Positions 1,541 through 20,475 of a stretch of 20,475 bases of DNA are shown here, one piece after another. The stretch is from a virus. The notes beneath the pieces are model-generated. The model was not told the DNA's origin. It searched no databases and saw nothing but the letters and a program-made list of their open reading frames with translations. Within the stretch, counting starts at the first letter, position 1. Each line of letters opens with the position of its first letter. A program made the position numbers and the translations under genes. Location: IMG/VR virus record IMGVR_UViG_3300031857_001722, positions 1 through 20,475 of that record. One strand, 5' to 3'.

Positions 1541-1592
1541 CCGCGTGTCACTATTGTACTTCGAGGCTCAATCCCGAGTCCATAGGGGTTTA

Positions 1593-1611
1593 CCCTGGTG
1601 TTGTACCAGGG
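1593..1611. other. 7-bp hairpin next to the DnaA boxes
   Basis: CCCTGGT (1593-1599), loop GTTGT, ACCAGGG (1605-1611). It is a perfect stem, 12 nt before the first DnaA box, and has no U-tract. Confidence 0.5.
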
Positions 1612-1622
1612 CAACACATGAG

Positions 1623-1642
1623 TTATCCACAGGTTATCCACA
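1623..1642 (+). promoter_or_regulatory. Two tandem consensus DnaA boxes (candidate replication origin)
   Basis: TTATCCACA occurs at 1623-1631 and again at 1634-1642, separated by GG, so the boxes have an 11-bp period, about one helical turn, and the same orientation. Both match the strongest E. coli-type DnaA box exactly. They lie in a gene-free interval with a G-quadruplex motif, a Z-DNA-prone tract and a hairpin. Known biology: DnaA boxes nucleate origin opening. Inference: host DnaA may be recruited to start phage replication early, or be titrated. No DnaA or DnaA-like gene is in the window. Confidence 0.55.
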
Positions 1643-1722
1643 TGGGGTAAACACTAGAACCCCCATAAACACCCATGCAAGAACCATGCCAACAGCCCCA
1701 ATGCTAGGTGAAAACCCTAGTT

Positions 1723-1747
1723 CTGACAATATTTTATCTTTTGTCAG
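1723..1747. other. 7-bp hairpin in the leader of the 54-aa gene
   Basis: CTGACAA (1723-1729) and TTGTCAG (1741-1747) with an 11-nt AT-rich loop. Just upstream, at 1701-1720, CTAGG..CCTAG forms another small dyad containing the CTAG tetramer seen in the downstream leaders. Confidence 0.45.
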
Positions 1748-1805
1748 GATCATGTAAGTTTCATGTAGACAATCCATCTCATCGCAACCAACCCCGGAGT
1801 CTCAA

Positions 1806-1970
1806 ATGCTCACGCAAAATCAAAGGGATACACTGGAATATTTGAATTCTCTCATGTTTCGGACAGACGACCAAGAGCAACAAATGCGCCGTCTACTTGA
1901 CATTGCAAACCAAGAGGGAAGGGTCAACTACAATATGTATCGTCCCTATATTTCCTTCGAGCCTGCCTAA
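1806..1970 (+). CDS. Small hypothetical protein, 54 aa
   Basis: I do not recognise this protein. It starts MLTQNQRDTLEYLNSLMFRT and continues with a Gln/Arg-rich, probably helical segment (DDQEQQMRRLLDIANQEG), then a Tyr-rich tail (VNYNMYRPYISFEPA). ATG 1806 follows GGAG (1796-1799) by 6 nt, and the leader contains CATCGCAACCAA, a string that recurs before the GP88-like gene. The stop TAA (1968-1970) is the first part of the TAAGGGTTT element of the next leader. Small size, good RBS and the shared leader style support a real gene; function unknown. Confidence 0.55.
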   Translation: MLTQNQRDTLEYLNSLMFRTDDQEQQMRRLLDIANQEGRVNYNMYRPYISFEPA

Positions 1971-2038
1971 GGGTTTTCCCCATTGCGTCCCTTGTGGACG
2001 CAAGAGAGAATACCCCCAACAAACCAATGGAGTATCCC
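1968..2038 (+). repeat. Structured leader element, copy 1
   Basis: TAAGGGTTTTCCCC begins at the upstream stop codon. A perfect hairpin TTGCGTCC/GGACGCAA (1983-1990/1996-2003, loop CTTGT) follows, then ACCCCCAACAAACCA and GGAG ahead of the GTG at 2039. It has the same architecture as four other leaders in this block. Confidence 0.55.
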
Positions 2039-2227
2039 GTGATTCCAAAATCTCTTCACACTGTTACCGTACTGGTGCAATTGACCCGCCACCTATATGC
2101 AACCCGTAGTGATTTTGCCCTTACAATCAATCATTGCCTATTCAAGGCATTGGACGTACTGGGATACACTGATGCTCCCGATGTTCACGGGCTTACACTT
2201 CAAGCCCTGAAGAAACTAAGTAAGTAA
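2039..2227 (+). CDS. Small hypothetical protein, 62 aa, GTG start
   Basis: Not recognised. The start is chosen by analogy: neighbouring genes have CAACxAA, then GAGG or GGAG, then 6-8 nt, then the start codon. Here CAACAAACCAAT is followed by GGAG (2029-2032) and GTG at 2039, so the in-frame ATG at 2027 overlaps the RBS and is unlikely. The protein (VIPKSLHTVTVLVQLTRHLY, then a mixed helical region, ending LQALKKLSK) shows no metal or nucleotide motif. Its stop TAA (2225-2227) is again fused to the GGGTTT element of the next leader. Real-gene status is moderately supported; function unknown. Confidence 0.5.
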   Translation: MIPKSLHTVTVLVQLTRHLYATRSDFALTINHCLFKALDVLGYTDAPDVHGLTLQALKKLSK

Positions 2228-2297
2228 GGGTTTCCCCTAGTTCACAAGGGCTAGGGGCTCCCTTATAAACACCCCATCGCAACCAAGTGAGGCAAGA
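2225..2297 (+). repeat. Structured leader element, copy 2
   Basis: TAAGGGTTT starts at the upstream stop codon. The hairpin has two parts: AAGGG (2226-2230) with CCCTT (2260-2264), and CCCCTAG (2234-2240) with CTAGGGG (2251-2257). TATAAACACCCCATCGCAAC then leads to GAGG before ATG 2298. Confidence 0.65.
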
Positions 2298-2942
2298 ATG
2301 CTGAGAATCAGTGTTACCAGTAAACTAGACGGCATCCGCTCATGGTCCCTGCAAGCCCTTGATACTTGCCCGGGTTCAATTGCCCCCAATGGGGGGCTGG
2401 TGGACGCATGCAAGGGTTGCTATGCGACTACGGGGAATTACGTCTTTGATAACGTCAAAGCCCCTAGGCTAGAGAACCGGGATGATTGGGCCCGTGACAA
2501 TTGGGTTTCTGACATGGTGCAAGCCTTGAATAAGGATAGGTATTTCCGTTGGTTTGATAGTGGTGATATGTACGCTATTGGATTGGCAGAGAAAATCCTA
2601 GACGTTATGCGTGCAACCCCATGGGTTCAGCATTGGATTCCCACTAGGATGCAGAAGTTTTCCAAGTATCAGGGAATCCTGGATTCCATGCGTGCTTTGC
2701 CCAATGTGTCCGTGCGATTCTCTAGCGATAGTGTATCGGGGGAATACGTCAAGGGCCAGCATGGTTCCACCATTGTTCCCACTAGCGACAATGTGCCGGA
2801 TGGTGTCGCAGTGTGTCGTGCCTATGAACATGGGGGCAAGTGTAACGGATGCCGCACTTGTTGGGATAAGTCTGTCCCTGTTGTTGCCTACGTTGCGCAT
2901 GGTAAGAAGATGGCCAAAGTGATTAGGCTTCGCGTAGCGTAA
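2298..2942 (+). CDS. GP88-like cysteine-rich phage protein, 214 aa
   Basis: Resembles the GP88 family first named from mycobacteriophages; function is not established. Seven cysteines sit in two clusters: C24, C38 and C41 (LDTCPGS, then ACKGCYA), and C173, C182, C185 and C188 (C-x8-C-x2-C-x2-CW). Between them lie RWFDSGDMY (84-92) and HWIPTRMQKFSKY (112-124), typical of the family, and a YVAHGKK motif lies near the end. This layout suggests a bound metal or Fe-S cluster, and some similarity to the Gp37/Gp68-type radical-SAM-like phage proteins is possible but unproven. ATG 2298 follows GAGG by 6 nt. It is the largest gene in the leader-repeat block. Family call is fairly confident from motifs; biochemical role unknown. 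Confidence 0.65.
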   Translation: MLRISVTSKLDGIRSWSLQALDTCPGSIAPNGGLVDACKGCYATTGNYVFDNVKAPRLENRDDWARDNWVSDMVQALNKDRYFRWFDSGDMYAIGLAEKILDVMRATPWVQHWIPTRMQKFSKYQGILDSMRALPNVSVRFSSDSVSGEYVKGQHGSTIVPTSDNVPDGVAVCRAYEHGGKCNGCRTCWDKSVPVVAYVAHGKKMAKVIRLRVA

Positions 2943-2944
2943 CA

Positions 2945-3018
2945 CCTAGGGTTTCCCCTAGTGTACAAACTAGGGGAACCATAAGAATATCGGTTCACAC
3001 TAACAAAGCGAGGAAAGC
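2945..3018 (+). repeat. Structured leader element, copy 3
   Basis: CCTAGGGTTTCCCC is followed by the strongest hairpin of the set: GGTTTCCCCTAGT (2950-2962) pairs with ACTAGGGGAACC (2969-2980) over 12 bp with one bulged T and a 6-nt loop. ACTAACAAAGCGAGG then precedes ATG 3019. It begins just after the stop of the GP88-like gene (2940-2942). Confidence 0.65.
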
Positions 3019-3168
3019 ATGACATTCACTTTCACCCTATATGATTCCCTCGGCACTTTCACGAAGACAATAAAGGCCCCCGATTACCAACAAGCGGTAG
3101 AGAAAATTATGTCCCTTTATCCTTTCTGTCTCATCGTAAAACCGGAAGAACCATGGAATTTCGGCTAA
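3019..3168 (+). CDS. Small hypothetical protein, 49 aa
   Basis: Not recognised. Sequence begins MTFTFTLYDSLGTFTKTIKA, then a helical DYQQAVEKIM segment and a FCLIVKPEEPWNFG tail. The alternating pattern of the first 20 residues suggests a beta hairpin, giving a small beta-beta-alpha-beta fold. GAGGAAA lies 4-9 nt before ATG 3019. The stop TAA (3166-3168) is the start of the next TAAGGGTTT leader, as with two neighbours. Translation, RBS and context support a gene; function unknown. Confidence 0.6.
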   Translation: MTFTFTLYDSLGTFTKTIKAPDYQQAVEKIMSLYPFCLIVKPEEPWNFG

Positions 3169-3237
3169 GGGTTTATCCCTATGGCACAATATCCCGTGCC
3201 ATATTATAAACCTTTCGTCAACCAAAAGAGGACTAAC
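3166..3237 (+). repeat. Structured leader element, copy 4
   Basis: Two nested stems: AAGGGTTTAT (3167-3176) with ATAAACCTTT (3206-3215), 10 bp including one wobble, and TATGGCAC (3180-3187) with GTGCCATA (3196-3203), 8 bp perfect. CGTCAACCAAAAGAGG then precedes ATG 3238. The stop of the upstream gene is embedded in TAAGGG. Confidence 0.65.
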
Positions 3238-3648
3238 ATGGAATTCACAAGCCTACGGGAAAAGATCAGTCACGAGACAAAGCAAAGGGCCGAGCGGTAT
3301 GCTGGTTTCCGTGCAATGTTGGATGAAGCCCTTGCAGCGGGTAACGCTGCGGGTTCTGGTATCACCCCGTCAACCATGTACGTACGGGATACCAGCACCG
3401 GGGAAACATGGGCAGAGAGTGAGGGCCCTTGCGGTTTCGCTTGGGTTTCCATTTTCAATCAAGGGAATACCAGTTTCGGACGCTGGCTCCTAAAGAATGG
3501 GGCACGTAAGCGGTACACTGGTGGCCTGGAATTCTGGATTCACGGGTTCAACCAAAGCATGGAGCGTAAGGAGGCCTGCGCCCATGCAATGGCCCGGGTG
3601 TTTCAGGCGCACGGCATTCAAGCCTACGCTGAGTCTCGGCTCGATTAA
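3238..3648 (+). CDS. Conserved phage hypothetical protein, 136 aa
   Basis: A widespread phage family of unknown function, recognised by the order of motifs: a helical N-terminus (LREKISHETKQRAERYAGF), a CGFAWVSIFN block near residues 62-71, FGRWLLKNGARKRYTGGLEF near 78-97, and a C-terminal FNQSMERKEACAHAMARVF followed by GIQAYAESRLD. The conserved Phe/Trp and Gly residues suggest a compact alpha-beta fold. Other phages, including actinophages, carry proteins with the same layout. ATG 3238 is preceded by AGAGG with 7 nt spacing, and the upstream leader belongs to the repeated set. Confident as a gene; role unknown. Confidence 0.7.
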   Translation: MEFTSLREKISHETKQRAERYAGFRAMLDEALAAGNAAGSGITPSTMYVRDTSTGETWAESEGPCGFAWVSIFNQGNTSFGRWLLKNGARKRYTGGLEFWIHGFNQSMERKEACAHAMARVFQAHGIQAYAESRLD

Positions 3649-3680
3649 CCCCCGTCACAGACCCTAAGGAGACACACAAT

Positions 3681-3767
3681 ATGGATGATAGACCCTCATT
3701 CTGGGACTACCTGAGCGTGGCCCTTGTGGCTGCAATGATGGGCTATGCCCTTGCACACATGGTATAG
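3681..3767 (+). CDS. Tiny single-pass membrane peptide, 28 aa
   Basis: MDDRPSFWDYLSVALVAAMM then GYALAHMV. A short acidic head precedes one hydrophobic helix of about 18 residues, so it is probably a single-span inner-membrane peptide with its N-terminus in the cytoplasm. It has a strong RBS (AAGGAG at 3666-3671). Its TAG stop lies inside the AGGAGG of the next gene, which suggests coupled translation. Phages often carry such peptides among host-takeover genes, but nothing here shows what this one does. Confidence 0.55.
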   Translation: MDDRPSFWDYLSVALVAAMMGYALAHMV

Positions 3768-3775
3768 GAGGACAT

Positions 3776-4033
3776 ATGAAGTATCAACCGATGTTCAATA
3801 TATGGGAAATGCCCCATGCATTCTATTCCCACATTCAACCCGGACAATGGGTGTATGCTGGGGATAGGGACAACAAGGGTATTTTCTGTGGTGTCAAACC
3901 CTCTGGGGTTGTCGTTGTCGCATGGTATGGCAACGCCAAAAACCAGGATTTCAGGGGCTACATTCGCGCAGTCATGCGTTACGCTAGTCCTAGGGTTTCC
4001 ACTAGTGGACAACTCAAGACCAGCAAAGTATAA
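3776..4033 (+). CDS. Hypothetical protein, 85 aa
   Basis: Not recognised. It starts MKYQPMFNIWEMPHAFYSHI, followed by a beta-rich central part (PGQWVYAGDRDNKGIFCGVK, then SGVVVVAWYGNA) that looks like a small SH3- or Tudor-like barrel. ATG 3776 follows GGAGG (3767-3771) by 4 nt. The last 15 codons or so overlap the fifth leader element (CCTAGGGTTTCC at 3989-4000), so the C-terminus may be an extension produced by insertion of the element or by loss of an earlier stop. The rest has good coding character. Confidence 0.6.
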   Translation: MKYQPMFNIWEMPHAFYSHIQPGQWVYAGDRDNKGIFCGVKPSGVVVVAWYGNAKNQDFRGYIRAVMRYASPRVSTSGQLKTSKV

Positions 4034-4064
4034 ACAACCCGTCAGCAACAAAAGAGGTTCTCAA
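3987..4064 (+). repeat. Structured leader element, copy 5
   Basis: CCTAGGGTTTCC followed by CACTAGTG; GTCCTAG (3987-3993) can pair with CTAG..GGAC (4002-4010) with a 2-nt bulge. TATAAACAACCCGTCAGCAA, then AAAAGAGG precede GTG 4065. It is the most decayed copy and overlaps the end of the preceding gene. Confidence 0.55.
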
Positions 4065-4397
4065 GTGGTACAAACCATCACATTCCAGGATTTTGTGGAT
4101 GCCTTCCGTGCCCGTGGGCGGGAAAATCAGTTCTCCTATGACGCCCTGCGCCTCATCTGGGACCATCTAGAAGAGGTGGACCCTGATGGAGAGTTGGACG
4201 TTATCGCAATCTGCTGTGACTTTGTGGAGATGAGCACTACCGAGTGCATGGAACAATACCCGGATATTCCGTCTGTTGCCGAGTTCGACGGTGACTACGA
4301 TCAGGACGAGCAGGACGTATTTGTGCAGGACTACCTAGAAGATAGGACTACCTATCTGGGTATGGGCAATGACGGTCACGTATTCTTGCAGTTCTAA
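4065..4397 (+). CDS. Conserved acidic phage hypothetical protein, 110 aa, GTG start
   Basis: Recognisable as a family found in many phages, with unknown function: VQTITFQDFVDAFRARGREN, then FSYDALRLIWDHLEEVDPDG and LDVIAICCDFVEMS. The FSYDALRLIWDHLEE helix and the DVIAICCDF strand with two adjacent cysteines are the hallmark. The C-terminal third is very acidic (DGDYDQDEQDVFVQDYLEDR), which might mimic DNA. GTG 4065 is chosen because AGAGG (4053-4057) lies 7 nt upstream; an earlier in-frame ATG would read through the preceding gene and the leader. A good RBS for the next gene overlaps its stop. Confidence 0.65.
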   Translation: MVQTITFQDFVDAFRARGRENQFSYDALRLIWDHLEEVDPDGELDVIAICCDFVEMSTTECMEQYPDIPSVAEFDGDYDQDEQDVFVQDYLEDRTTYLGMGNDGHVFLQF

Positions 4398-4407
4398 GGA
4401 GACTATT

Positions 4408-4785
4408 GTGGGACTAGATATGTACGCATTCAGGTCTAGTAAACTGGGCTTGATGAATGAGGAAGTAGATTTCCCTGCCCTAAAGGATGCAGAGGAAATA
4501 GCCTACTGGAGGAAGTTCAACCATCTGCACGGGTGGATGGAGAAACTCTATAGGTCCAAGGGTGGACAGGAAGAATCCTTCAATTGTGTAGGCGTGAGGC
4601 TTGATGCTGATGACCTAGATCAACTGGAGAAAGACCTAAAGGTGGGGCTCCCCCATACTCCTGGTTTTTTCTTTGGTGGTCCTGAGGTGTGGCCCGATCA
4701 CATGGAGATGACAAAGGAATTTATTTCTAAGGCAAGGGATGCACTAGAACACGAATATGGTGTATACTACTATTCTTGGTGGTAA
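4408..4785 (+). CDS. GLDMY-type conserved phage hypothetical protein, 125 aa, GTG start
   Basis: The N-terminus VGLDMYAFR is the signature of a common phage family (MGLDMY...), sometimes misannotated as phosphoglycerate kinase. The family pattern continues with EIAYWRKFNHLHGWMEKLY (37-55), ESFNCVGVRLDADDLDQLEK, and the Tyr/Trp-rich end EYGVYYYSWW. Function is unknown. GTG 4408 lies 6 nt after AAGGAG (4396-4401), which itself overlaps the stop of the preceding gene. The internal ATG four codons later lacks an RBS and would remove the conserved GLD. Gene call is confident. Confidence 0.7.
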   Translation: MGLDMYAFRSSKLGLMNEEVDFPALKDAEEIAYWRKFNHLHGWMEKLYRSKGGQEESFNCVGVRLDADDLDQLEKDLKVGLPHTPGFFFGGPEVWPDHMEMTKEFISKARDALEHEYGVYYYSWW

Positions 4786-4809
4786 GCCTAACGGCAGAAA
4801 GGAACAATC

Positions 4810-6126: not shown

Positions 6127-6201
6127 AAGGCCCTACAAGGCACGAATGGCACAAGGGTAAGGGGTGGGTAGCCTGAAGGCTTCTAAGGGCTCCTAGACAC
6201 T

Positions 6202-6235
6202 AGGTGTTGACACCTCCTCTACCTTGTGCTACTCT
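6202..6235 (+). promoter_or_regulatory. Sigma70-like promoter with overlapping dyad, ahead of primase-helicase
   Basis: TTGACA (6207-6212) and TACTCT (6230-6235) with a 17-nt spacer, identical in both boxes and spacing to the promoter at 1107-1135. The -35 box lies inside a perfect inverted repeat AGGTGT-TG-ACACCT (6202-6215), and ACAC-TAG-GTGT overlaps it upstream, so a repressor or activator may bind here. Transcription would start near 6242 and run into the AT-rich leader and the replication operon. Confidence 0.6.
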
Positions 6236-6348: not shown

Positions 6349-7854
6349 ATGGGTAAGTTTATAAGACATATAGGGTGTACTAGGTGTAACTCTAGTGATG
6401 CTAACGCCCTATATGATGATGGATCAACATATTGTTTTTCTTGCCATAGGGCAGGAGGCACAGAAAGGGAATGTGTGCAAGACATTGGACGAGGGCTAAA
6501 CAGTGACACCATCAAGACCTATGGTGTGTATGTGGATGGGGAATATGTGTACTTTCCCTACACCAATGCGTTGAAGCGCCGCAGTAGTGACAAGAAGTTT
6601 TCCTGGCCTCAGGGTAAGGGGGAAGGACTCTTTGGGCAAGGGGTGTTCCCATCCTCTGGGAAAACTGTTGTTGTCACAGAGGGTGAGTTTGACGCAATGG
6701 CAGCGTACCAGATGCTGGGTACAAAGGTGCCTTGTGTGTCCATCCGCAATGGTGCTGGCAGTGCCTTGCGGGACTGTCAGGATGCCTTTGAATGGCTCGA
6801 TGGCTATGGGTCTATCATCATTGCCTTTGACGCTGACGAACCCGGGCAGCAGGCGACACAGACCGTGGCTGAACTCTTTGGGTCAAAGGCCCGAGTGGTG
6901 AAGCACTCCAATGGATTCAAGGATGCCAATGACTACCTGATGCAGGGGTCCAGTGCCAAGTTTGTGAAGGCAGTGCTGGAGGCAGAGGAATATAGGCCAG
7001 ATGGCATTGTGTCTGTTGGGGACATAAAGGAGCGACTACTAGCCCCACAGAAACCTGGAATCCCTTGGTGTTTTGACACCCTCACGGCCCTCACACATGG
7101 CAGGCGTGAAGGGGAACTCTATGGGTTTGGTGCTGGTGTTGGTGTGGGCAAGACGGATGTGTTCACGCAGTCCATTGCCTACGACATTGCGGTGTTGAAT
7201 GAACGTGTTGGTGTCATCTACTTGGAGCAACCTGTAACGGAAACTGTGGCCCGTGTGGCAGGGAAACTCGATGGGGCCCTCTACCATGTACCGGGTGCAG
7301 GGTGGCAATGGGATGATTATGTGGCCTCCATTGAGGCTTTGGAGGCACGAAAGCAACTGTGGCTCTTTGAGCACTTTGGCAGCAAGGAATGGGCTGTCAT
7401 CAAGGCCAAGATTCGCTACATGAAGAAGAGTCTAGGTGTGCGGATGATTTACTTGGACCACCTCACTGCTCTCACGGCAGATGCAGAGGATGAACGCAGG
7501 AGTCTGGACAAACTCATGGCTGAGATGGCCTCATTGGCTCAGGCTGAAGGGCTGGTGATTCACTTCATTAGCCACCTGACAACCCCTTCAGATGGCAAGA
7601 GTCACGAGGAGGGAGCTCGGGTACGCGAACGGGACTTCACTGGTTCTCGTGCCATTGCCCGGTGGAGTCACTTCATGTTTGGCCTTGAGCGGGACAAGCA
7701 GGCAGAAGACCCAGTAGTTCGCTCAACTACTACGTTCCGGGTGCTGAAAGACAGGTATACTGGGCAAGCCACAGGAGAGGTATTCTTCCTTCGCTATGAT
7801 GCCAAGACGGGACGCCTGAACCAAAGTGACAAACCCCCGGAGGAAATACTGTGA
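6349..7854 (+). CDS. T7 gp4-like primase-helicase, 501 aa
   Basis: Unwinds DNA 5' to 3' and makes RNA primers at the replication fork. Domains in order: a zinc-binding primase finger with C10, C13, C29 and C32; a TOPRIM primase core with EGEFDAM (111-117), DADEPG (161-166) and KDANDYL (191-197); and a RecA-like helicase with Walker A GAGVGVGKT (261-269), a YLEQP switch (291-295), Walker B MIYLDHL (366-372) and an Arg-finger-region GSRAIARWSHFMFGLERD (432-449). It is slightly shorter than T7 gp4 (566 aa), and its C-terminus ends PPEEIL, less acidic than the T7 tail that contacts polymerase. ATG 6349 follows AAAGGA. First gene of the replication operon, expressed from the promoter at 6207. Confidence 0.92.
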   Translation: MGKFIRHIGCTRCNSSDANALYDDGSTYCFSCHRAGGTERECVQDIGRGLNSDTIKTYGVYVDGEYVYFPYTNALKRRSSDKKFSWPQGKGEGLFGQGVFPSSGKTVVVTEGEFDAMAAYQMLGTKVPCVSIRNGAGSALRDCQDAFEWLDGYGSIIIAFDADEPGQQATQTVAELFGSKARVVKHSNGFKDANDYLMQGSSAKFVKAVLEAEEYRPDGIVSVGDIKERLLAPQKPGIPWCFDTLTALTHGRREGELYGFGAGVGVGKTDVFTQSIAYDIAVLNERVGVIYLEQPVTETVARVAGKLDGALYHVPGAGWQWDDYVASIEALEARKQLWLFEHFGSKEWAVIKAKIRYMKKSLGVRMIYLDHLTALTADAEDERRSLDKLMAEMASLAQAEGLVIHFISHLTTPSDGKSHEEGARVRERDFTGSRAIARWSHFMFGLERDKQAEDPVVRSTTTFRVLKDRYTGQATGEVFFLRYDAKTGRLNQSDKPPEEIL

Positions 7855-12635: not shown

Positions 12636-13284
12636 AGCTTCTCTTGTCAATGTATGTGGTAGTGATTTGTTTGTTGCTAACGCTGCTAGGGTTTCGTTTA
12701 ATAAGGCATCTGAGCTTAACCCTGATGGAAGTCTTTCAGAGAAGGACACAAAACTCATCAACTACCTAGCCAAGCACAACCATAAGAGTCCCTTCAACCA
12801 TTGCTTCCTCACCTTCCGAGTTAAGGCACCAATCTTTGTGGCACGACAACTAGTGAAGCACAAGTTCATGCCGTGGAATGAAGTGAGTAGGCGTTACGTT
12901 GATGAGGAACCTGAGTTCTATTTTCCAGGTATTTGGCGCAAGAAGTCAGAGAGTAAGAAGCAAGGTAGCAGTGAAGAAGCAGTGAGCATGAGTCATGCCT
13001 GTGCCATCTCTGCTGAAACTACTATCAAGTCAAACCTAACTCTGTATAAGACTCTTCTGTTAGAAGGAGTATGTCCAGAACAAGCCCGTATGGTGTTGCC
13101 ACAAAACACCATGACAGAATGGTATTGGAGTGGCACACTAGGGGCCTTTTGTGATATGCTGTGGCTACGTCTGAAAGAGGACACACAAAAGGAAACTAGA
13201 GATGTAGCAGTGCTCATTGCCAATGAGGTAAAGAAGCACTTCCCTGTTAGTTACAATGCACTAAGGAGCAATTATGCAAACTAA
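12616..13284 (+). CDS. thyX: Flavin-dependent thymidylate synthase ThyX, 222 aa
   Basis: Converts dUMP to dTMP using FAD and methylene-tetrahydrofolate, supplying thymidine for replication alongside the deaminase and RNR. The ThyX motif RHRxxSxxxxSxR appears as K81-H-K-F-M-P-W-N-E-V-S91-R-R93, with conservative Lys for Arg changes and Pro in place of the first Ser; the catalytic-position Ser (S91) is kept. Flanking family features are VARQLVKH, RRYVDEEPEFYFP and QARMVLPQNTMTEWYWSGTL. Length matches the family. ATG 12616 is chosen because longer versions overlap the zinc-ribbon gene fully. The last codons (AATTATGCAAACTAA) belong to a 31-bp tandem duplication. Confidence 0.9.
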   Translation: MKVSPIEASLVNVCGSDLFVANAARVSFNKASELNPDGSLSEKDTKLINYLAKHNHKSPFNHCFLTFRVKAPIFVARQLVKHKFMPWNEVSRRYVDEEPEFYFPGIWRKKSESKKQGSSEEAVSMSHACAISAETTIKSNLTLYKTLLLEGVCPEQARMVLPQNTMTEWYWSGTLGAFCDMLWLRLKEDTQKETRDVAVLIANEVKKHFPVSYNALRSNYAN

Positions 13285-13326
13285 GAACCCTTATGGGAGC
13301 AATTATGCAAACTAAGAACACTTATG
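13265..13326 (+). repeat. 31-bp tandem duplication at the thyX 3' end
   Basis: GGAGCAATTATGCAAACTAA, then GAAC[C/A]CTTATG is present twice, at 13265-13295 and 13296-13326, differing at one base (C 13289, A 13320). Each copy holds an RBS (GGAG), ATG and the thyX-type ending. The first copy gives a 13-codon decoy ORF (MQTKNPYGSNYAN), and the second starts the next real gene. Confidence 0.9.
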
Positions 13327-19586: not shown

Positions 19587-20475
19587 TTAAAGAGTAATTG
19601 CAGTTTTAGAGGATAGGGGTTTAATTAGAGCCCCTGTGTTTATGTCAATCTTCAACCCGAGGTCCACATAGGTTCCAATGTAGTCATTCCCGTTAGGCCC
19701 ATAAGGTGTACCCAGTTTCACCAGTTCTGGTGGTGGATAACGTGGGTAGAGGAGACTTGCATCAAAGCCCGTTAGAGAGTAGGCACCAGAAGCAGCAAAG
19801 AGGGAACGTGCCCTTACAAGGGTTGCATCAACCCCAGTGAGGCTATAGCTCCCTGCTGCGGCATTAATGGCCTTCCCTTGTGACAAGGTTGCAGCAGCAC
19901 CTGTGAGCACATAGGAGCCACTCTCGGCATTGATGAATCTGGCACTACCACTGTATTCCAGTGTGGCATCAACGCCTGTGAGGCTGTATGAACCCGCTGC
20001 TGCGTTAACAGCCCGCCCAACAGACAACGTTGCCGCTGCACCCGTGAGGCTATAACTGCCAGCCTCTGCGTTGACATTAGAGGCCCGTAGGAGCGTTGCA
20101 GGAGAGCCGGTAAGGGTGTAGGACCCACTCTCTGCGTTAACGGCTCTAAGGGCCTCTAAAGTGGCTGCAAAGCCCGTTAGGGTGAACGTCCCTGTCTCTG
20201 CATTGATGGTGTACGCTGTGACACCAGCAGCAGGAACCTCCATCTCTGCCCATGAGACATACCAGTTCTTCGCGTAAGTGAGAGTGGCATCAGCACCTGT
20301 GAGGGTGAAGGAGCCAGCAGCAGCGTTTACAGAGCGAGAGGCCGTTAGGGTGTTGTCTACACCTGAGAGGCTGTAGGAACCAGGAGATGCCTCTAGGGCA
20401 CGAAGGGCAACAAGTGTGGCAGCACTACCCGTTAGGTTGTAGGACCCCGGGGAAGCATCTATCTCATAGGCAGTG
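19587..20475 (-). CDS. Repeat-rich probable virion protein, C-terminal part (runs off window)
   Basis: The frame is open from the right edge (codon boundary at 20474) to TAA at 19587; no start lies in the window, so the internal ATG at 20243 is not the true start. Ten copies of a 22-25 residue repeat with the core NAxxGSYxLTGxxATL are seen (examples INAAAGSYSLTGVDATL, VNAESGSYTLTGSPATL). A short insertion of WYVSWAEMEVPAAGV interrupts the third. After the tenth comes a non-repeat end containing KLGTPYGPNGNDYIGTYVDL. Short beta-strand repeats of this kind occur in phage and bacterial surface proteins. Likely a tail or capsid-decorating component because it is in the late operon; the exact role is unknown. 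Confidence 0.6.
   Translation of the reverse strand, partial: TAYEIDASPGSYNLTGSAATLVALRALEASPGSYSLSGVDNTLTASRSVNAAAGSFTLTGADATLTYAKNWYVSWAEMEVPAAGVTAYTINAETGTFTLTGFAATLEALRAVNAESGSYTLTGSPATLLRASNVNAEAGSYSLTGAAATLSVGRAVNAAAGSYSLTGVDATLEYSGSARFINAESGSYVLTGAAATLSQGKAINAAAGSYSLTGVDATLVRARSLFAASGAYSLTGFDASLLYPRYPPPELVKLGTPYGPNGNDYIGTYVDLGLKIDINTGALIKPLSSKTAITL
19747..20475 (-). repeat. Array of ten 22-25 residue coding repeats
   Basis: About 66-75 nt per unit, in frame, with core NAxxGSYxLTGxxATL. Units 7 and 9 have nearly identical protein (NAAAGSYSLTGVDATL) but many synonymous differences at the DNA level, so the repeat is kept by selection on the protein and is not a recent DNA amplification. 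Confidence 0.8.

Follow-up and report, generated by a model that had tools for sequence, protein, structure and literature searches.

The DNA analysed here, called the window throughout, is the 20,475-nt IMG/VR record IMGVR_UViG_3300031857_001722 from an uncultivated freshwater phage. It contains five leaders (1967-4064), each ahead of a short gene and all built to one plan. We consider it probable (roughly 75%) that the leaders are compact promoter modules lying between cistrons, each with a palindromic protein-binding box. The strongest evidence is the spacing between box and promoter, which was reproduced in a fresh scan. The analysis is based on sequence only, and many of the IMG/VR records compared are fragments. 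For small early genes of abundant uncultivated freshwater phages, the modules offer a promoter signature that is concrete and can be searched for. Megablast of the window against named phages returned no match, leaving this phage without close named relatives; its primase-helicase (6349-7854) is 35-46% identical to those of T7-like phages.

A palindromic box phased to sigma70-like promoters

A sequence-only reading of this DNA had described five leaders with a common architecture, and all were found at their claimed sites. Each contains, in order, AGGGTTT, exactly 30 nt, TATAAA or a weaker equivalent, CAACCAA/CAACAAA-like letters, a ribosome binding site (RBS) and the start codon. The hexamer 30 nt after AGGGTTT is TATAAA in leaders 2, 4 and 5, AGAATA in leader 1 and GAATAT in leader 3. 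The string TAAGGGTTT is exact at 1968, 2225 and 3166, where it gives each upstream open reading frame (ORF) its TAA, as had been noticed, and CTAGGGTTT is found at 2946 and 3990. Of two related strings reported further upstream, the one at 1778 is correct, but position 1663 reads CATAAACACCC and not TATAAACACCC. The fixed 30-nt distance, the palindromic form of the box and an extra box at 6183 are additions to the earlier description.

The 9-mer by itself is not enriched in the window (8 matches at one mismatch vs 4.8 expected). The three-part pattern AGGGTTT-N29-31-TATAAAC-N4-14-CAAC has three copies (leaders 2, 4 and 5), where about 1e-5 are expected per strand for a sequence of this length and composition. 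Across all of IMG/VR, more than one copy per phage occurs only in near-identical contigs of the window phage. Exact AGGGTTT-N30-TATAAAC-CAAC matches in other IMG/VR phages look like chance and were set aside.

AGGGTTT makes up the left half of a palindrome of 14-18 bp, CTA(A/G)GGG-N-CCCTAG (CTAGGGTTTCCCCTAG in leader 3). Boxes were gathered from relatives of the GP88-family gene, of the primase and of ORF 3776, and sigma70-like promoters lie directly after them. In L261, for example, the -35 abuts the box (CTAGGGAAAACCCCTAG-TTGACT-N17-TATAGT), and L015 exemplifies a second register (CTAGGGTTTGTCCCTAG-N10-TTGACA-N16-TATAGT). A promoter abuts the box (offset -1 to +1) at 12 of 41 non-redundant boxes, compared with 0.8 +/- 1.0 in dinucleotide shuffles (maximum 6). 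The -10 hexamers peak 23 nt after the box (10/55 boxes vs 0.5 expected) and again at 32-33 nt (9/55 vs about 1 expected); these peaks are ~10 bp apart, and the two registers are therefore separated by one helical turn. An independent set from a new IMG/VR scan with CTAAGGGNNNACACCTAG (104 stretches, 39 non-redundant) repeats both registers: the 18-bp box is followed at 22 nt by the -10, and TTGACA stands at +10/+11. Start codons usually lie 70-85 nt from the start of the box in the adjacent register; in the other, about 100 nt is the usual distance.

We predict that a dimeric regulator binds the box, which borders the -35 of a sigma70-type promoter on its upstream side and partly stands in for it; the -10 of this promoter lies 23 nt past the box. 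The transcript would begin shortly after the -10 with a short, C/A-rich, unstructured leader (CAACCAA), followed by the RBS and by a start codon 70-85 nt from the box. The overlap of the box with the upstream stop codon would follow from the tight packing of the genes. Many modules have poor -35 hexamers (e.g., GGCATT in L055, AGCATT in L015 and TGGCAC in module 4), which suggests an activator that recruits host RNA polymerase, like Mor at the Mu promoter Pm. An activator is thus the leading reading of the putative box binder, with a repressor or host regulator as the main alternative. A consequence open to experiment is that the small early genes would be driven in parallel by a phage or host regulator. 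The sequence-only reading had proposed translational or termination control; transcription initiation fits better, given that what is conserved is a DNA element in phase with a sigma70-like promoter. No intrinsic terminator (GC-rich hairpin plus T-run) was called at any leader.

The box could also be an operator for a repressor or a co-opted host regulator, a variant of the promoter reading that does not exclude it and that we regard as possible, if short of probable. In its favour are the second box of module 2, which overlaps the -10, and the presence of the box in phages of differing gene content, and host-regulator sites such as those of CtrA are known in phage promoters (PMC9437464). However, the poor -35 hexamers favour activation, and the exact abutting position seen in most cases is less expected of a repressor.

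Several results weigh against the promoter reading. The scoring matrix was a hand-entered approximation of E. coli sigma70 and may not be the host's, although the positions of the peaks after the box should be independent of matrix details. The box was defined after examples had been seen; the independent scan tests that definition on fresh sequences. Modules 2 and 5 score at the 99.96th and 99.94th percentile of the window, whereas modules 1 and 3 are weak, and a general promoter scan of the window called none of the five leaders. Mor (PF08765) was not found at E<=1 in 13 records, many of them fragments. Comparison of the ORFs of box-bearing and box-free loci yielded no shared DNA-binding protein or obvious regulator; it gave mainly shared clusters read as structural and replication genes, along with GP88 and ORF 4065. 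Finally, a promoter model alone leaves the hairpin unexplained.

Hairpins in the predicted promoter spacer

The leaders had been said to carry hairpins that differ in sequence and keep their shape. This applies to leaders 1-4, for which RNA folding against shuffles gives z of -4.0, -4.4, -2.9 and -5.0, but not to leader 5 (+0.2). Folding with DNA parameters agrees with this, leader 2 having a weaker value. The hairpins of leaders 2 and 3 are partly built of repeated box half-sites (CCCCTAG...CTAGGGG). Among modules in the adjacent register, hairpins between box and -10 strongly exceed shuffles: the Stouffer z is -11 for the first set and, for the independent set unselected for hairpins, -4.1. 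Modules in the other register reach -2.4. The hairpin is an additional element in about half of the adjacent-box promoters.

The further claim, that structure is kept while bases change, is borne out in one subgroup. L015, L055 and L239 have a stem of 13 pairs in common, in which three pairs show compensatory double changes and two show G-C/G-U exchanges; one pair is broken in L239. G-U pairs are present in several stems. Near-identical contigs of the window phage have zero variation over the modules and thus yield no covariation; the homologues found for ORF 3238 are in such contigs only. In seven modules with aligned arms, chosen for having a stem, 81 of 91 pairs form; out of 5040 arm permutations, no more than 6 do equally well. 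The sequences behind the covariation counts are few. Beside the modules, 1428-1562 is a local variable segment in which the near-identical contig L093 has many small deletions, and 1562-4806 is identical.

An upstream stop codon lies within 13 nt in 13/13 modules with a hairpin and in 8/23 without (p = 9e-5, with hairpin and stop labels assigned by hand). This tie to a nearby stop points to action in read-through RNA. At modules that abut an upstream stop, the hairpin between box and -10 probably works in RNA arriving from upstream, where it may serve processing, stability or 3'-end protection, or insulation.

The same observations could be taken to mean that the leaders are structured RNA elements, with the hairpin as functional unit (RNase III-type processing, 3'-end protection, translation insulation) and the box as part of the RNA. 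The folding of leaders 1-4, the two set-wide z values, the G-U pairs, the compensatory changes in 3 of 13 pairs and the association with stops are all as such an element would have it. We nevertheless consider this unlikely: a hairpin is missing from leader 5 and from roughly half of the adjacent-box modules, and the box is palindromic and phased to the -10 with or without one. In addition, no Rfam family matched the leaders above the gathering score, and the covariation comes from few sequences picked for their hairpins.

Tentatively, the promoter reading can be extended to a dual DNA/RNA module. About 75 nt would then combine a stop codon, an activator site, a promoter spacer, a read-through hairpin and a translation leader, with the hairpin kept by pairing and free in sequence. 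Controlled by an undescribed regulator, such a module may move together with small early genes between many uncultivated freshwater phages.

Recurrence among phages and neighbouring features

The box layout recurs in dozens of other uncultivated phages in IMG/VR, including unrelated ones with different gene content. Copies in related genomes, anticipated by the sequence-only reading, were found before orthologues of several genes. Besides those of the window, modules directly precede GP88 in L055, L041, L018, L013 and L242 (34% identity) and the orthologue of ORF 4065 in L015 and L239; ahead of the ORF 2039 orthologue, L089 has a box-hairpin module. For ORF 3776 the situation is reversed: a module lies ahead of it in L036, and in the window none is immediately adjacent. 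Several other genes of the region in L036 and L089 follow plain RBS-only junctions; thus the module was multiplied in the window phage, or copies were lost in the relatives. GP88 was rejected as an obligatory partner of the module because it was not found in four box-bearing records (fragments).

Upstream ORFs end at a TAA within the box at modules 1, 2 and 4, and also in L055, L239, L070 (the GP88 stop itself), L089, L018, L009, L013, L335, L351 and L354. Such stops are partly automatic, because CTAAGGG always includes a stop in one of its frames, but genuine genes end there, so the predicted promoter overlaps the end of the preceding gene.

A genome scan with one exact form, CTAGGGTTTTCCCTAGTNNACA, gave a single acidobacterial match and thus no sign of a host-wide motif. 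Among phages of Limnohabitans, Bordetella and Pseudomonas, the box had one weak two-mismatch match, in Limnohabitans phage YIMV22061. Nothing relevant to the palindrome was found among open-licence papers, and an earlier description elsewhere is possible.

The idea that the leaders are recombination or cassette boundaries (site-specific or hairpin-based) that move small genes fared less well. The early-region gene order does differ among the window, L036 and L089 while orthologous genes keep their module. However, in near-identical contigs the modules are not places of gene gain or loss, the arms differ from copy to copy with no constant recombinase site, and a phased promoter better explains the fixed spacing, so that we think mobility of this kind improbable. 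Promoters of a T7-like phage RNA polymerase that initiates at the box's GGG are scarcely credible: CTAAGGG looks like the 3' end of certain T7-like promoters (PMC9596486), but the letters before the box are unconserved ends of different coding sequences where 17+ bp of conservation upstream of +1 would be expected, a GGG start leaves the downstream -10 phasing unexplained, and the single-subunit polymerase (PF00940) was not found in four related records, a weak result as control genomes gave no matches either. N4-type hairpin promoters and integron attC sites were also considered and dropped since loop size and arm sequences vary and there is no constant core.

Other sequences related to the box were seen. 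Perfect or near-perfect extended palindromes that take in the -35 itself, such as GTCAACTAGGGGTTTTCCCTAGTTGAC, occur in L261 (3017 and about 5176, minus strand) and L262. A further recurring block, CTAGGG(A/G)NAATCCTAGGCCATA(A/G)CG..., is on the opposite strand of several GP88 phages (L016 464, L026 2717, L030 4046 and L005 4936, minus strand).

Table 1. Predicted modules, boxes and the GP88-family gene in the window.
Feature	Position	Strand	Elements
Module 1	1967..2041	+	box CTAAGGGTTTTCCCCAT 1967-1983, holding TAA stop of ORF 1806-1970; RBS GGAG; GTG start 2039
Module 1 dyad TTGCGTCC/GGACGCAA	1983-2003	+	weak -10-like AGAATA 2007-2012
Module 2	2225..2300	+	box A TAAGGGTTTCCCCTAG 2225-2240; -35-like TTCACA 2241-2246; N17; -10 TATAAA 2264-2269
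Module 2 second box B CTAGGGGCTCCCTTA	2251-2265	+	overlaps -10
Module 2 hairpin	2234-2257	+	CAACCAA 2280-2286; ATG 2298 of GP88
Module 3	2946..3021	+	box CTAGGGTTTCCCCTAG 2946-2961; -35-like TGTACA 2962-2967; weak -10-like GAATAT 2985-2990; hairpin 2953-2978; ATG 3019
Module 4	3165..3240	+	box CTAAGGGTTTATCCCTA 3165-3181, holding TAA stop of ORF 3019-3168; -10 TATAAA 3205-3210; ATG 3238
Module 4 hairpin TATGGCAC/GTGCCATA	3180-3203	+	
Module 5	3990..4067	+	box CTAGGGTTTCCACTAG 3990-4005; -35-like TGGACA 4006-4011; N17; -10 TATAAA 4029-4034; GTG 4065; without stable hairpin
Sixth box CTAAGGGCTCCTAG	6183-6196 (element 6183..6235)	+	second register: N10, TTGACA 6207-6212, N17, TACTCT 6230-6235; upstream of primase-helicase 6349-7854
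Palindrome CTAGGTGAAAACCCTAG	1704..1720	.	related box upstream of ORF 1806-1970; promoter not evident; CATCGCAACCAA at 1778
Box-like TAGGGGTTTACCCTGG	1583..1598	.	in long intergenic region
GP88-family gene (PF17338)	2298..2942	+	served by module 2 (predicted)

The long intergenic region before the early genes also contains, at 1623-1642, two perfect DnaA boxes (TTATCCACA) 11 nt apart; the window has three DnaA boxes vs 0.24 expected, and this region is a possible replication origin. Upstream of the early block, 496-1047 encodes an HNH/endonuclease VII-like protein with an HTH_38-like N-terminal segment. At 13265-13326, a direct duplication of 31 nt (97%) repeats an RBS and start region, GGAGCAATTATGCAAACTAAGAAC. 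On the minus strand, 19819-20464 has tandem repeats with 66-nt spacing in a gene encoding repeated (I/V)NAxSGSYxLTG units, and its product is likely a structural or fibre protein.

Comparison with known systems

The Mu promoter Pm has a -10 and no -35; its 16-bp regulatory element is centred at -43.5, contains 5-bp inverted repeats and is bound by Mor as a dimer (PMC4390567). The modules are similar in their ~16-bp dyad immediately upstream of the promoter, their recognisable -10 and a -35 that is poor or absent in many copies; if the transcript starts 7 nt after the -10, as predicted, the box centre would also fall at about -43.5. They differ in that the box centre is A/T-rich (G/C-rich in Pm), in being present many times per genome, with a second register one turn further upstream, and in the lack of a Mor-family gene in the 13 records searched.

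The early region of T7 has promoters and RNase III sites between small genes. The modules likewise belong to small early genes separated by short regions with a predicted promoter and a hairpin. Unlike in T7, their hairpin is inside the promoter spacer and optional, and no T7-like RNA polymerase was found in the four records searched.

By analogy, the closest functional parallel is the extended start-associated sequence (ESAS) of cluster K mycobacteriophages, of which the modules are not members. ESAS are inverted repeats upstream of start-associated sequences (SAS) (PMC3203893), and in Adephagia they have recently been reinterpreted as SigA-like promoters of 46-47 bp that contain an imperfect inverted repeat (PMC11373665). 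It is this reinterpretation that makes the resemblance to SAS/ESAS, already drawn in the sequence-only reading together with the remark that the sequences differ, apt in function. The sequences are indeed unrelated: the SAS 13-mer GGGATAGGAGCCC, which in cluster K lies within a few nt of start codons, has no match in the window at <=2 mismatches. Box sequence, half-site length and position also differ, and the box of the modules often overlaps stops, in unrelated freshwater phages. Common to both are several intergenic copies before early genes, an inverted repeat, a conserved translation-start region and sigma70/SigA-like hexamers 17-18 bp apart. The same functional layout seems to have arisen in unrelated phages.

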